NCBI RefSeq assembly: GCF_036867135.1
Contig: NZ_JBAJIJ010000001.1
Coordinates: 1,488,001 to 1,552,000 of the forward strand
Length of the DNA stretch: 64,000 bases
Origin: Aeromicrobium sp. Sec7.5
Lineage (GTDB): Bacteria; Actinomycetota; Actinomycetes; Propionibacteriales; Nocardioidaceae
Direction: 5' to 3'
Positions 53,290 through 61,604 of this stretch are shown piece by piece; the first letter of the stretch is position 1; each line of letters starts with the position of its first letter. Position numbers and translations under genes: made by a program. The notes beneath the pieces are model-generated. The model searched no databases and had not been told where the DNA came from. It saw only the letters and a program-made list of their open reading frames with translations.

Positions 53290-53652
53290 ATGACCTCCAA
53301 GCCTGAAGTTGACTTCATTCCCGGCCCGCCCCCGACCGAGCTGACGGTCACCGATCTCGTCGAGGGCGAGGGCGCCGAGGCCGTCGCCGGCGGCGTCGTC
53401 GACGTCCACTACGTCGGTGTCGAGTTCGAGACCGGCGAGCAGTTCGACGCCTCCTGGGACCGCGGCCAGTCGGCCCGCTTCCCGCTCCCCAACCTGATCG
53501 CCGCCTGGCAGCAGGGCATCCCCGGCATGAAGGTCGGCGGCCGCCGCCAGATCGTCGCCCCGCCCGAGCTCGCCTACGGCCCCGCCGGCGGCGGACACCG
53601 GCTCTCGGGCAAGACCCTGGTCTTCGTCATCGACCTCCTCGACGTCGCCTGA
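53290..53652 (+). CDS. FKBP-type peptidyl-prolyl isomerase
   Basis: Cytoplasmic FKBP-type PPIase, 120 residues, a single domain without signal peptide. HYVGVEFETGEQFDASWDRG, the active-site LIAAWQQGIPGMKVGGRRQI and ELAYGPAG...LVFVIDLLDV align with the family. ATG at 53290 has CAGGAT 6 nt upstream. The long palindrome starts 18 bp after its stop. Confidence 0.95.
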   Translation: MTSKPEVDFIPGPPPTELTVTDLVEGEGAEAVAGGVVDVHYVGVEFETGEQFDASWDRGQSARFPLPNLIAAWQQGIPGMKVGGRRQIVAPPELAYGPAGGGHRLSGKTLVFVIDLLDVA

Positions 53653-53670: not shown

Positions 53671-53750
53671 GAGGCCGCCCAGATTCGTGGACTTTGGGAC
53701 CCGATCAGCCCCGGTCAGGGTCCTAAAGTCCACACATCTGGGCGGTCCTC
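53671..53750. repeat. Long near-perfect palindrome, copy 1 (5' of DUF559 gene)
   Basis: An 80-bp inverted repeat: left arm 53671-53702 and right arm 53717-53750, loop about 14 bp. Arms agree over about 32 positions with three substitutions and one single-base indel. Core of the left arm: CGCCCAGATTCGTGGACTTT then GGGACC; the right arm reads GGTCCTAAAGTCCACACATC then TGGGCG. A second copy closes the far side of the DUF559 gene. Confidence 0.9.
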
Positions 53751-53813
53751 TCGGCTTCCACAGGCTGCGACTCCAGCCGCCCGTCCCATCCCTCGACGCA
53801 CCATCGTCGGGGG

Positions 53814-54716
53814 ATGGACCTTTTCCAGCCGTTCACAGTCGACATGGCTGCTGCTCACGGGCTCAGTCGGCGGGCGCTGCGGCACCCGCGGTTCCGACGG
53901 CTCCTGCGTGGTGTCTACATCAGCGCCGACGCGACGTTGACGCTGACGATCTGGCTCCAGGCGGCGCTCCTGGTGCTCCCGCCTGACGCTGTCGTCAGCC
54001 ACACCTCGGCGATGCGCCTGTACGGATTCGAACCGCGCCGCCGAGGGTTCCTGGAGTTCTCGACGAACACGGGCGCGACGACGAAGCTGCAGCAGATCGT
54101 GCTGCACCGCCGTCGGTGGCAGCTGCACCCGCGGGAGGTCGGTGCGTTCTGGGCCACCGGTCCGGACCGGACCTTCGTCGATGTGGCTGCCCGGTCGCCG
54201 TTGCCCGAGCTCGCCGCGTTCGGCGACCACCTCGTGCACCACCGGCTGACCACCCCGGACGACCTGCGTTGGTATGCCGACTCGCGGCACCTCGATGGCG
54301 TGCGACGTGCCCGCCGCGTCTCGCGACTTGTGGTCGAGGGCGCGGAGTCGGTGCGCGAGTCGTACCTGCGGATGATGTTGTGGTTCGCGCGTCTCCCGCG
54401 CCCCGAGGTGAACGGTGTCATCCTCGATGCGAGCGGAGAGTTCCTCGCTCGAGGTGACCTCGTCCTGCGTCGATGGAAGGTCGTCGTGGAGTACGACGGC
54501 CGGCACCACCTGCACGATCTGAAGCAGTGGCAGCACGACCTGCGACGTCGCGAACGCCTCGAAGCCGAGGGGTGGACCATCATCGTGGTCACGGCGGCGG
54601 ACTTCCGTCAGCCGCAGCTCATCCCGGTCCGTGTGCACGAGGCTCTGGTGAACCACGGCTATCACGGCCCCGCGCCTGTCCTCAGCGTCCAGTGGCGACG
54701 CTGGTTCACCCCTTAG
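53814..54716 (+). CDS. DUF559 / AbiEi-like domain protein (Vsr-like nuclease fold)
   Basis: A 300-residue two-domain protein. Residues about 6-38 look like the AbiEi-type winged-helix module (FTVDMAAAHGLSRRALRHPR, then LRGVYISADA). Residues about 175-265 are a DUF559 domain of the Vsr/PD-(D/E)xK type: E182, D215 (RGDLVL), E226 and D228 (VVVEYDGRHH), D242 and R245-247 (QHDLRRRERL), then GWTIIVVTAADF. All likely catalytic acids are intact. Database labels call such proteins type IV antitoxin-like, but no toxin gene is beside it. It is flanked on both sides by copies of one palindrome; the TAG stop abuts copy 2. ATG at 53814 follows a GGGGG run. Confidence 0.85.
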   Translation: MDLFQPFTVDMAAAHGLSRRALRHPRFRRLLRGVYISADATLTLTIWLQAALLVLPPDAVVSHTSAMRLYGFEPRRRGFLEFSTNTGATTKLQQIVLHRRRWQLHPREVGAFWATGPDRTFVDVAARSPLPELAAFGDHLVHHRLTTPDDLRWYADSRHLDGVRRARRVSRLVVEGAESVRESYLRMMLWFARLPRPEVNGVILDASGEFLARGDLVLRRWKVVVEYDGRHHLHDLKQWQHDLRRRERLEAEGWTIIVVTAADFRQPQLIPVRVHEALVNHGYHGPAPVLSVQWRRWFTP

Positions 54717-54785
54717 CGCCCAGATATGTGGACTTTGGGACCGAAACAGGCTCGATCTGAGTCCCAAACGCTGCAAATCTGGGCG
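54717..54785. repeat. Palindrome, copy 2 (3' of DUF559 gene)
   Basis: A 69-bp inverted repeat starting at the base after the DUF559 stop codon: left arm 54717-54742 (CGCCCAGATATGTGGACTTT then GGGACC) and right arm 54761-54785 (GTCCCAAACGCTGCAAATCT then GGGCG). About 20 of 25 arm positions pair. The left arm matches copy 1 closely; the right arm has decayed. It also fills the space before the convergent hrpA stop at 54788 and could end both transcripts. Confidence 0.88.
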
Positions 54786-54787
54786 GA

Positions 54788-57700
54788 TCAGGGGGTGGGC
54801 AGGGCGTCGAGCAGGTTGCGCATCCGCTTGAGGCTGACGGGGTGGGCGGTGCCGAGCTTCTGCGCCGTGAGGCTGATCCTCAGCTCCTCCAGGGCCCACC
54901 GGACCTTCTGGACCTCCGGGGTCAGGCGCTGGAGCTCGCGCAGCTGCGCTGACCTGCGGTGGAACTCCGCCTCGAGGTCCTGGGCCTCCAGCAGGGGAGC
55001 AGGCGTACCGGCCGTCTGCAGCCGCATCGCGGCAGCCTGGAGGTAGACCGCCAGGCGAGGGAGCCGGTCGATGCCCATGTCGCGGACGAACCCGGGGTAG
55101 ACGAGCCAGGAGAGCTGCACCCGCACGTCCTCGCCGGCCTCGTCGGGGCCGGGGCGGACGTCACCGAGCCGGTCGTAGGCGCGGATCACGTGGGTCACAG
55201 CGCGCTGCGTCACGTCGAAGACCTCCTGCCGGACGACCTCGGTGAGCTTGGCGAAGCCCTCCTCGTTGGCGGCAGGCCCCCCGTGCCGCTCGACGAGGTG
55301 GTCGAGCGCCGCCAGCCAGCACGCCTCGATGACCTCGGCAGCGTCGCGGTACGGGCCGGTCTGGAGCGTGAGCTTCGCCCGGGTGTCGAGGGTGCGCCCG
55401 ATCGTGGGCACGACCGACGGCAGCTCGAACGACATGAGCCGCGCCTGTCCACGCACACCCGCGGCGCGCTGCTCGGCGGGGGACTCCAGAACCCGCAGAC
55501 CGACCGAGCCGCCCTCGTCGACGACCGACGGGTACCCCGTCTGGCGTGCGGCGGTCACCTCGACCGGGATCGTGCCGAACACCCAGGTCCGCTCACCCGA
55601 GCGCTCGAGACCACCCGTCGCGTCCTGGAGCTGCTCACGCAGCCGCGGACGCAACCGCTCGCGGAGGTCGTCGAGCTCGTGTCCACGGGCGACCTCCTCG
55701 CCGGAGTCGTCGAGCACCCGGAACTTGACCCGCAGGTGGTCCGGGAGCGACGAGGGATCGAAGTCGTCGGCGCGGACGACGCTGCCGCCGCGGGCCGACA
55801 GGACGCGGCCGAGCTCGTCGGTGACCGTGCCGCGCGCGGGGTCGAGCTGGTGCAGCACCTCGCCCACGACCTGCGGCACCGGCACGAACTCGCGCCGGAC
55901 CGACTTCGGCAGCGAGCGCACGAGGGCCTCGACCAGGTCGCGGCGGTGCCCCTCCACCTGCCAGCCGAACGCCGCGTTGTCGAGCCCGGGAAGCTGGTCG
56001 AGCGTCACGTCGACCATGACACCGTCGTCGACCGTGCCCGGTTCGAACGTGTAGGTCAGGGGCATGGGGGCGCCGTCCGAGAACCACTCGGTCGGGAAGG
56101 CGTCAGCATCGGCATCGGCCTGCACGAGGTCGGCCGTGGTCAGGTCGAGCAGGTCGGGCGTCGAACGTCGGGCCTTCTTCCACCACCCGTCGAAGTGCCG
56201 GGTCGAGACGACGTCGGCCGGGACGCGCTCGTCGTAGAACGCGAACAGGGCCTCGTCGTCGACGCGGAGGTCACGGCGGCGCACCCGCGACTCGAGCGCG
56301 TCCACCTCGGCGAGCAACGCCTGGTTGCGGGCCCAGAAGTGGTGGTTGGTGCGCCACTCGCCCTGCACGAGCGCGTGCCGCACGAAGAGCTCCCGGGCCA
56401 GAGGGGCGTCGAACCGTGACAGGGGGACCAGCCGGTCGGCGACGACGGGAAGGCCGTAGAGCAGCACCCGCTCGCGCGCCATGGCCGATCCGCGCTTGGT
56501 CGACCAGTGCGGCTCGGCGTACTGACGCTTGACCAGGTGCGGCGCCGCCTCCTCGATCCACTCCGGCTGCACCCGCGCTGCCGTGCGCGCCCAGAGTCGG
56601 GTCGTCTCGACGAGCTCGGCGGCCATGACCCACGCCGGTGGCTTCTTCGCGAGGCCCGAGCCCGGGAAGACCATGAACCGCGCGCCTCGGGCGCCGGCGT
56701 ACTCCTTGCCGTCGGCCTCGCGCAGCCCGACGTGGGAGAGCAGACCCGTGAGCAGGGCGCGATGCACCGTGTCGGGGTCCGAGCCCTCCAGCCGGACAGC
56801 CTTGTCGCCCGCCTTCATCCCGAGGTCGCGCACCGTGCGCCGGAGCTGGGAGTGGACGTCCTGCCACTCGCGGATCCGGAGGTAGTGCAGGAACTCGCCC
56901 TTGCACATCGCCCGGAACTTCGAGTGCGACATCTCGTCGCGCTGCTCCCGCAGGTACGTCCACAGGCTCAGCCACGACAGGAAGTCGGAGTCGGGCTGGC
57001 GGAACCGTGCGTGCTTCTCGTCGGCGGCCTGCTGCTTCTCGAGCGGACGCTCGCGCGGGTCCTGGATCGACATCGCGGCCACGATGACGAGGACGTCGCT
57101 GAGGCAGCCCAGGTCGTCGGCGGCCACGACCATGCGGGCCAGACGCGGGTCGACCGGCATCCGCGACATCGTGCGACCGAGTCGGGTCAGCCGCAGGGTG
57201 CCGTCCTTCGCGTCGACCACGGCACCCAGCTCGCGCAGCAGGTTGACCCCGTCGGCGACCGAGCGCGAGTCGGGCGGATCGAGGAAGCCGAACTTCTCGA
57301 TCGGTCCGAGGTCGAGTGACGCCATCTGCATGATGACCGACGCCAGGTTGGTGCGCTGGATCTCCGGGTCGGTGAACTCCGGACGGCCCTCGAAGTCGTC
57401 CTCGGCGTACAGCCGGATGCAGATGCCGTCGGCGACGCGACCACACCGACCGGCCCGCTGGGCGGCGCTGGCCTGCGAGATCGGCTCGATCGGCAGCCGC
57501 TGCACCTTGAGCCGCTGGCTGTACCGCGAGATGCGCGCCAGCCCCGGGTCGATGACGTAGCGGATCCCCGGGACCGTCAGGGAGGTCTCGGCGACGTTCG
57601 TCGACAGCACGATCCGACGGCCCGGGTGCGACGAGAAGATCTTCTGCTGGTCGGCTGAGGAGAGCCGCCCGAACAGCGGAAGGATCTGGGTGTTCCGATA

Positions 57701-58426
57701 CTTCTTGCCCGCGAGGTGCTCGTCGACGTCGCGGATGTCGCGCTCGCCGGGCAGGAAGACGAGGATGTCGCCGTCGCGAGGCAGCTCCTCCACCGCGGCG
57801 GCGATGCCGTCGAGCAGGTCGCCGGAGTCGGGCTCACCCTCTGCCGTCTGGTGCAGGGGTCGGTAGCGCACCTCCACGGGGTAGGTGCGCCCGCTGACCT
57901 CGATGACGGGGGCGTCGAACAGCTCGGCGAAGCGTTCGACGTCGATCGTGGCCGAGGTGATGACGAGCTTGAGGTCGGGTCGGCGGGGGAGCAGCTGGCG
58001 CAGGTAGCCCAGGAGGAAGTCGATCGACAGCGACCGCTCGTGCGCCTCGTCCACGATGATCGTGTCGTAGCGGCGGAGCTCGCGGTCGTGGTGGATCTCC
58101 TGCAGCAGCAGACCGTCGGTCACGAGCTTGACCTGGGTCGCCGCCGAGCTCTGGTCGTCGAACCGCACGGCGTAGCCGACCTCGGCACCGAGCGGGACGT
58201 CGCACTCCTCGGCGATCCGCTTGGCCACCGAGCGTGCAGCGATGCGACGTGGCTGCGTGTGGGCGATCTTCTGGCGCCCCAGGCCCAGAGCGATCTTCGG
58301 CAGCTGCGTGGTCTTGCCGGAGCCGGTCTCGCCGGCCACGACCACGACCTGGTGGTCACGGATCGCGCGGGCGATCTCGTCGCGGCGGGCGGAGATCGGC
58401 AGCGCGTCGTCGAACTCGAGCCTCAT
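54788..58426 (-). CDS. hrpA: ATP-dependent RNA helicase HrpA (DEAH box)
   Basis: DEAH-box helicase, 1212 residues, slightly shorter than the E. coli protein (about 1300). Walker A AGETGSGKTTQ (32-39 core), DEAH at 126-129, SAT motif (TSATID), and motif VI QRAGRCGRV are intact, followed by the HA2/OB region and the long HrpA-specific C-terminus. It acts on structured mRNA or stalled ribosomes. ATG at 58426 overlaps the upstream CPBP gene by 4 bp. Its 3' end faces the DUF559 gene across palindrome copy 2. Confidence 0.95.
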   Translation of the reverse strand: MRLEFDDALPISARRDEIARAIRDHQVVVVAGETGSGKTTQLPKIALGLGRQKIAHTQPRRIAARSVAKRIAEECDVPLGAEVGYAVRFDDQSSAATQVKLVTDGLLLQEIHHDRELRRYDTIIVDEAHERSLSIDFLLGYLRQLLPRRPDLKLVITSATIDVERFAELFDAPVIEVSGRTYPVEVRYRPLHQTAEGEPDSGDLLDGIAAAVEELPRDGDILVFLPGERDIRDVDEHLAGKKYRNTQILPLFGRLSSADQQKIFSSHPGRRIVLSTNVAETSLTVPGIRYVIDPGLARISRYSQRLKVQRLPIEPISQASAAQRAGRCGRVADGICIRLYAEDDFEGRPEFTDPEIQRTNLASVIMQMASLDLGPIEKFGFLDPPDSRSVADGVNLLRELGAVVDAKDGTLRLTRLGRTMSRMPVDPRLARMVVAADDLGCLSDVLVIVAAMSIQDPRERPLEKQQAADEKHARFRQPDSDFLSWLSLWTYLREQRDEMSHSKFRAMCKGEFLHYLRIREWQDVHSQLRRTVRDLGMKAGDKAVRLEGSDPDTVHRALLTGLLSHVGLREADGKEYAGARGARFMVFPGSGLAKKPPAWVMAAELVETTRLWARTAARVQPEWIEEAAPHLVKRQYAEPHWSTKRGSAMARERVLLYGLPVVADRLVPLSRFDAPLARELFVRHALVQGEWRTNHHFWARNQALLAEVDALESRVRRRDLRVDDEALFAFYDERVPADVVSTRHFDGWWKKARRSTPDLLDLTTADLVQADADADAFPTEWFSDGAPMPLTYTFEPGTVDDGVMVDVTLDQLPGLDNAAFGWQVEGHRRDLVEALVRSLPKSVRREFVPVPQVVGEVLHQLDPARGTVTDELGRVLSARGGSVVRADDFDPSSLPDHLRVKFRVLDDSGEEVARGHELDDLRERLRPRLREQLQDATGGLERSGERTWVFGTIPVEVTAARQTGYPSVVDEGGSVGLRVLESPAEQRAAGVRGQARLMSFELPSVVPTIGRTLDTRAKLTLQTGPYRDAAEVIEACWLAALDHLVERHGGPAANEEGFAKLTEVVRQEVFDVTQRAVTHVIRAYDRLGDVRPGPDEAGEDVRVQLSWLVYPGFVRDMGIDRLPRLAVYLQAAAMRLQTAGTPAPLLEAQDLEAEFHRRSAQLRELQRLTPEVQKVRWALEELRISLTAQKLGTAHPVSLKRMRNLLDALPTP

Positions 58427-61568: not shown

Positions 61569-61604
61569 AGAACCCCGCAGATTCTCTTGAATCTGCGGGG
61601 TTCT
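61569..61604 (+). terminator. Intrinsic terminator of tRNA-Leu
   Basis: Perfect 16-bp stem (61569-61584 with 61589-61604) closed by a TCTT loop and followed by CTCGTTTC. It ends the tRNA transcript and, being symmetric, may also stop the convergent methyltransferase gene that ends at 61611. Confidence 0.85.

Follow-up and report, generated by a model that had tools for sequence, protein, structure and literature searches.

DUF559-type nuclease genes of Aeromicrobium bracketed by private palindromes: a putative palindrome-associated endonuclease system

Most members of a family of actinobacterial genes for a predicted DUF559-type nuclease have on either side a copy of one palindrome that is private to the gene, and the locus described here is one instance of this general rule. 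It lies in a window of 64,000 nucleotides (the whole stretch of DNA that was analysed) from Aeromicrobium sp. Sec7.5, whose genome, of 3.4 Mb, is referred to as G000. Copies of the palindromes are also scattered, mostly between genes and with a preference for convergent gene ends, and the scattered families that we tested occur mainly in genomes carrying the matching gene. We regard this as a new kind of system, a putative palindrome-associated endonuclease system. It is probable that the gene encodes an endonuclease associated with the palindromes and that these are its cognate miniature elements; the whole has the look of a novel type of small DNA element that spreads by means of an enzyme for which no link to such DNA was previously known.

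The window locus and its nuclease

At the window locus, the upstream palindrome occupies positions 53671..53750 (no strand assigned), with an ungapped core at 53675-53745 and an AGAT...ATCT block of 59 nt at 53681-53739, which is a covariance-model match at C1:1541681-1541739. The nuclease gene follows on the plus strand (53814..54716, 300 aa) and ends in a TAG codon at 54714-54716; the downstream palindrome (54717..54785, likewise unstranded; AGAT...ATCT block at 54722-54780, covariance-model match at C1:1542722-1542780) starts at the very next base, as the first-pass annotation had pointed out. The 5' neighbour is an FKBP-type isomerase gene (53290-53652, plus strand) and the 3' neighbour an hrpA-type helicase gene (54788-58426, minus strand), both named from the sequence and by that annotation, and the palindrome-nuclease-palindrome unit occupies the convergent intergenic region between them.

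The pairing of two palindromes around a single nuclease gene, noted on first inspection, is real. Scanning the 64 kb of the window for hairpins yields no more than two with a score of at least 14, the upstream palindrome with 19 and one other with 16, the downstream palindrome being the weaker hairpin of the flanking pair (ungapped score 10). DNA folding gives z-scores of -8.4 for the upstream and -5.5 for the downstream palindrome, and none of 200 shuffles folds equally well. Additionally, the core common to both palindromes has three matches in the window at up to 3 mismatches and none in 100 shuffles, and the two palindromes are 77% identical over 70 nt. The sole other hairpin above the scan threshold, at window positions 61569-61604, pairs perfectly over 16 bp around a loop of 4 nt and is possibly an ordinary terminator.

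As read from its sequence, the encoded protein is composed of an AbiEi-like part and a Vsr/EDxHD nuclease whose predicted active site is nearly invariant. The DUF559 (PF04480) profile scores 22.2 bits, above the Pfam gathering cutoff of 20.6, and residues 7-158 match the PADLOC AbiEi model with an E of 2.6e-12. The structure model matches AbiEi and Vsr-like folds and falls by its fold within the EDxHD/Vsr superfamily. Residues 1-174 (53814..54335, plus strand) have a predicted AbiEi-antitoxin-like fold, to which a DNA-binding role may be ascribed by analogy, and residues 177-284 (54342..54665, plus strand) form a predicted EDxHD/Vsr-like nuclease domain with E182, D215, E226, H232 and D242, for which a homing endonuclease is the top match by VIA-align Z. 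Among 131 homologues longer than 260 aa, E182, E226 and H232 are each kept in 130, D215 in all 131 and D242 in 98%. The AbiEi-like part and three of the four acids named by the first-pass annotation (E182, D215 and E226) are thus confirmed; at its fourth, D228, the homologues have D in 76 and E in 54 cases.

Flanking repeats across the family

Our sample of the genus comprises 49 Aeromicrobium genomes, 44 of which carry a homologue at E <= 1e-10, with 180 matches in total; the analysis covered 136 loci, L016 having been dropped at the tblastn cut and the other matches, of lower rank, left out. G000 itself holds 8 homologues at E <= 0.01, and several of these paralogues bear different palindromes of their own. 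Hairpins scoring at least 14 within 350 nt are found upstream at 60, downstream at 42 and on both sides at 22 of the 136 loci, and in 11 of 902 control windows. When 400 nt upstream were compared with 400 nt downstream (score of at least 18), a shared repeat was detected at 107 of the 136 homologue loci versus 33 of 2040 mismatched pairs, at none of 153 other real ORFs of these loci and at 1 of 242 pseudo-genes. Merging the loci that share flanking DNA gives 29 site clusters, 27 of them with a shared repeat, and 8 of 1915 pairs taken from different site clusters reach the repeat threshold. The association between palindrome and DUF559-type gene that had been suspected at the outset is therefore very strong, with a real remainder of 29 genus loci that miss the threshold. 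Outside the genus, the shared repeat is present in 28 of 40 testable loci (41 fetched) and absent from 12, the passing loci belonging to Rhodococcus, Agreia, Subtercola, Herbiconiux, Rathayibacter and Cellulomonas, among others.

Many of the palindromes combine an end box that is conserved by class (AGATNTG, AACTTTTG or GCGGTGAG/GCGGTGGA) with a variable inner box. The AGAT class typically runs from AGAT to ATCT over 59 nt. In 15 aligned examples of this class, which had been pre-selected for pairing, 88.5% of cells pair, against 28-45% in slid controls, and changes occur on both sides in 17 of 22 pairs; double-change cells number 79 versus 27.6 +/- 3.8 in shuffles, a measure of covariation. 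The tag-to-tag length of the AGAT class is 58-60 in 48 flanks, 69 in 8 and other values in 22, with none at 61-68 (AGAT-tag background: 20 of 1059 control windows). The corresponding lengths are 60-62 (17) and 71 (2) for AACTTTTG, and 50-51 (17), 60 (1), 81-82 (10) and five others for GCGGTGAG. Palindrome lengths hence peak at 50-51, 58-62 and 69-71, and this spacing of about 10 bp is suggestive of a dimer placed on one face of duplex DNA. A loopless 60-nt palindrome at positions 1494-1553 of L008 (G000:C1:1849640-1849699) has the core GCGCCCAGATGTGTGG in common with the window palindrome and is absent from the AGAT-model matches in G000.

Across genes, palindrome similarity and protein similarity are weakly correlated (Spearman 0.27), a value that none of 300 permutations reached, the palindromes apparently evolving more quickly than the proteins. 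As genes carry palindromes of their own, gene and palindrome form pairs, and the system is a family of such pairs.

Dispersed copies and site history

The palindrome recurs in its own genome and in relatives, as the first reading of the window had anticipated. The AGAT covariance model finds at least 18 places in G000, of which 16 are dispersed and the other 2 adjoin the window gene. In G042 (Aeromicrobium Leaf350) it finds at least 45, of which 43 are dispersed and 2 adjoin genes. According to a simple gene caller, 50 of these 59 dispersed copies are intergenic, and convergent gene pairs hold 35 of the 59, compared with 207 of 772 pairs in the background (p 7e-7). Among the 57 dispersed copies that are full-length, 39 have arms that agree with a palindrome flanking a gene at 10 or more of 14 positions (null mean 1.1, maximum 5 in 200), and the other 18 match no gene tested in this comparison. 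Three dispersed families of G042 correspond to the genes L017, L046 and L073 of this genome, and the L017 and L073 families resemble the G000 families of L009 and L010; no gene was identified for a fourth G042 family (AGATNTGCTCCCGAATCCACC, about 8 copies). Solo copies vary among themselves in the inner box. At positions 1501-2896 of L306 (G042:C3:15322-16717), small ORFs lie between two near-identical AGAT-type palindromes of family D, with no known gene.

The GCGGTGAG-class palindrome of the paralogue L011 has 56 matches in G000 at up to 2 mismatches, and a reversed-pattern control has none. Its units form clusters on both sides of L011 and 17 dispersed clusters, 12 of which are intergenic, 6 of these being convergent by the gene caller. 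Of the 17 dispersed clusters, 13 contain an inverted pair at their centre with a fixed offset of 35 nt, mostly accompanied by outer direct and inverted units. One palindrome cluster, at about 1200-1370 of L357 (G000:C2:194159-194328), holds a tandem GGGCGGAC run between palindrome units.

In regard to co-occurrence, the AGAT model has no match in any of the five genomes that lack a homologue at E <= 1e-10, and matches are found in 41 of the 44 genomes with one (p 3e-5). The other zero-match genomes, G004, G030 and G039, carry, among the matches listed, only homologues 31-34% identical to the window protein, and G015 and G033 have 11 and 2 AGAT-model matches despite having, among the matches listed, distant homologues or a fragment only. 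In G011, two adjoining homologue fragments (G011:C1:1783724-1784561) look like one broken gene, and this genome retains 15 AGAT-model matches.

For three palindrome families, occurrence follows that of the matching gene, and some near-variants turn up in other genomes. Matches to AACTTTTGAAGCGTTGCGCA number 17 in G020, 15 in G023, 2 in G041, 1 in G028 and none in the other 45 genomes, and among the 136 loci this sequence flanks only L022 (G020), L026 (G023) and, once, L020 (G041). For AGATNTGTGCNCNNACCGACC there are 21 matches in G042 and 0-3 elsewhere, each of the latter with 1-2 mismatches, its 20-nt version flanking only L046 of G042 among the 136 loci. Similarly, GGGCGGTGAGTGTTCCACC has 56 matches in G000, 39 in G031, 19 in G042 and 9 in G032, and is found at the flanks only of L011 (G000), L111 (G031), L107 (G042) and L101 (G032); exact matches, among those listed, come only from these four genomes. 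At 1-2 mismatches it is matched 11 times in G026, 8 in G012 and 6 in G016, where the fetched homologues are without it, and the remaining genomes have 0-3 matches. In Agreia, no copy within 1 mismatch exists beyond the two palindromes of the gene itself, and four further matches have 3 mismatches.

Of 30 fetched FKBP loci, 5 have the nuclease gene at the FKBP-hrpA site, among them G032 with residues 206-300 only. No homologue (E <= 1e-5) lies next to FKBP in the other 25, an outcome in favour of the first-pass annotation, which had proposed looking for strains with an empty site. The gene is inverted in two of the five occupied sites (G031 and G032). Palindromes vary from one to another of these five sites, with a relationship between those of G000 and G042. 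G000 and G031 have identical FKBP proteins, yet their nucleases share 63% identity. This intergenic site may be an insertion hot spot. In G032, the inverted partial gene (L147 1123-1407) adjoins a palindrome with another inner box. In other species (L151, L152, L153, L158, L159 and L161) the site is long and has other sequence inside, with a membrane-protein-like ORF in L152 and L161.

Inversions at otherwise matching sites are also seen for L010/L068 and L020/L026. Between G005 and G017, which are about 95% identical in the compared flanks, one solo palindrome is present in one genome and absent from the other, an unpolarised difference of 84 nt, and this single clean presence/absence pair, which concerns a solo palindrome, shows no target-site duplication of the kind that goes with the terminal inverted repeats of insertion sequences; the gene itself has a palindrome at either end. 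The 136 loci amount to 29 site clusters, and the genes are mostly at conserved sites. The mobile repeat-nuclease cassette proposed in the first-pass annotation needs correcting on this point: it is mainly the palindrome that is dispersed, and the gene mostly stays in place.

Mechanism, rival explanations and known systems

We infer that the enzyme recognizes, cuts and spreads its palindrome. A homodimer would bind the double-stranded palindrome of about 60 bp through the AbiEi-like part, with specificity provided by the variable inner box and with the end box (AGATNTG, AACTTTTG or GCGGTGAG) conserved. The EDxHD/Vsr-like domain would nick or cut the palindrome, and repair or strand capture may copy it to new intergenic sites and, by the same route, keep the two flanking copies alike. 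The gene itself is for the most part passed on at its site, with occasional replacement, inversion or loss. On balance, we lean toward a broader proposal, according to which Actinomycetes would have evolved, separately from RAYTs, a second class of enzyme-run dispersed palindromes: a dimeric AbiEi-EDxHD endonuclease would recognize a private duplex palindrome of about 50, 60 or 70 bp and multiply it through intergenic DNA, the inner box diversifying with the enzyme to give several non-interfering lineages per genome.

The palindromes are intergenic and often lie between convergent genes, as would ordinary terminators beside an ordinary gene; the probability of such a coincidence is next to negligible in view of the shared repeat at 107 of 136 loci against none of 153 control ORFs and of the gene-specific palindrome families. 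The same location, with 35 of 59 dispersed AGAT-type copies between convergent genes (207 of 772 in the background), where bidirectional terminators have their place, would suit a regulatory or architectural role, in which a domesticated transcription, termination or nucleoid factor binds palindromes that are copied by ordinary recombination and not by a nuclease. Autoregulation through binding to inverted repeats is known for AbiEi-type proteins (PMC7319586, excerpt), which is consistent with this idea. We consider it unlikely, however, as the nuclease active site is nearly invariant across proteins 28-100% identical to the window protein, the palindrome sequence is gene-specific with family presence tracking the gene, and autoregulation needs no downstream copy.

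It is quite unlikely that the unit is a homing-type cassette, whose nuclease would cut single palindromes so that the whole unit is recombined in, later recombination between palindromes deleting the gene and leaving a solo relic. The homing endonuclease match of the nuclease domain points in this direction, as does the gene or remnant at 5 of 30 FKBP-hrpA sites, in both orientations and with differing palindromes. Nevertheless, genes sit at few conserved sites (29 clusters for 136 loci) and solo copies at many (59 places in two genomes), and the inner-box differences among solo copies indicate that recent loss of the gene from a single cassette does not account for all of them. A defense or toxin unit, in which the nuclease would attack foreign DNA and the palindromes would be self marks or a promoter-linked antitoxin site, is highly improbable. 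The AbiEi domain and the solitary nuclease gene with unrelated neighbours could be read in that way, but no second toxin-antitoxin gene is found at the window locus, a search of 50,697 phage records gave no match, viral contigs gave none that was confirmed, 72,556 plasmid records gave 5 weak matches, and the scattered cognate copies would be left unexplained. Our analysis found nothing in favor of this alternative, which had been raised on first inspection.

If the palindrome-associated endonuclease is the right reading, a function can be given to a sizeable set of actinomycete 'DUF559' proteins, many natural enzyme-target pairs of about 60 bp and of different specificities exist, and the spread of such palindromes can be tested by a standard nuclease assay.

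Our searches of the open-access PMC literature listed no paper that links the DUF559-type gene family to such palindromes. CGTC-tagged palindromes are dispersed and are said to be without a dedicated transposase (PMC3733652, excerpt); the present ones are likewise dispersed but have a different tag, and the word 'actinobacteria' is absent from the text of that paper. Unlike AbiEi antitoxins (AbiE type IV; Rv2827c), the window gene has as neighbours the FKBP-type and HrpA-type genes, as named from their sequence, and no adjacent AbiEii (DUF1814) toxin gene; its AbiEi-like part is fused to a nuclease domain, and its palindromes lie on both sides of the gene and genome-wide. Among EDxHD enzymes, I-Bth0305I appears to dimerize on a target of nearly 60 bp (PMC3943268, excerpt). 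In contrast to such homing endonucleases and Vsr, the gene described here is free-standing between two palindromes instead of lying in an intron or target, its product has an AbiEi-like N-terminal part, and the cognate sequences are present in many copies.

The likeness to REPIN/RAYT systems concerns layout and population pattern (PMC3116915, PMC8266576 and PMC3733652, in excerpts). Like a RAYT gene, the gene of the window family is flanked by cognate palindromes; the palindrome families are dispersed, mostly extragenic and gene-specific; several gene-palindrome pairs are found in one genome; and the GCGGTGAG-class inverted doublets, with a fixed centre in 13 of 17 clusters, resemble REPINs. 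The RAYT enzyme, however, is an HUH transposase, whereas the enzyme here is predicted to combine AbiEi with a Vsr/EDxHD nuclease, and a Y1/HUH transposase (PF01797; RAYT/IS200) is found in 0 of 7 genomes and in 5 of 14 control genomes. Further differences are the tag, GTAG there and AGATNTG, AACTTTTG or GCGGTGAG end boxes here, the length steps, which suggest recognition of double-stranded DNA, and the copy numbers, which are lower, with 2 to 17 dispersed places per genome in the families counted, REPs usually exceeding 100 copies (PMC2817692, excerpt). The first-pass description of a REP/RAYT-like layout without an HUH enzyme agrees with the lack of PF01797 in the 7 genomes and with the AbiEi and Vsr-like fold matches. 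Since it has neither the HUH enzyme nor the GTAG tag, the system is not a member of REPIN/RAYT, despite the same layout and population pattern: HUH enzymes are known partners of REP-like palindromes, and in the present family individual genes of another nuclease fold are linked with dispersed palindromes of their own.
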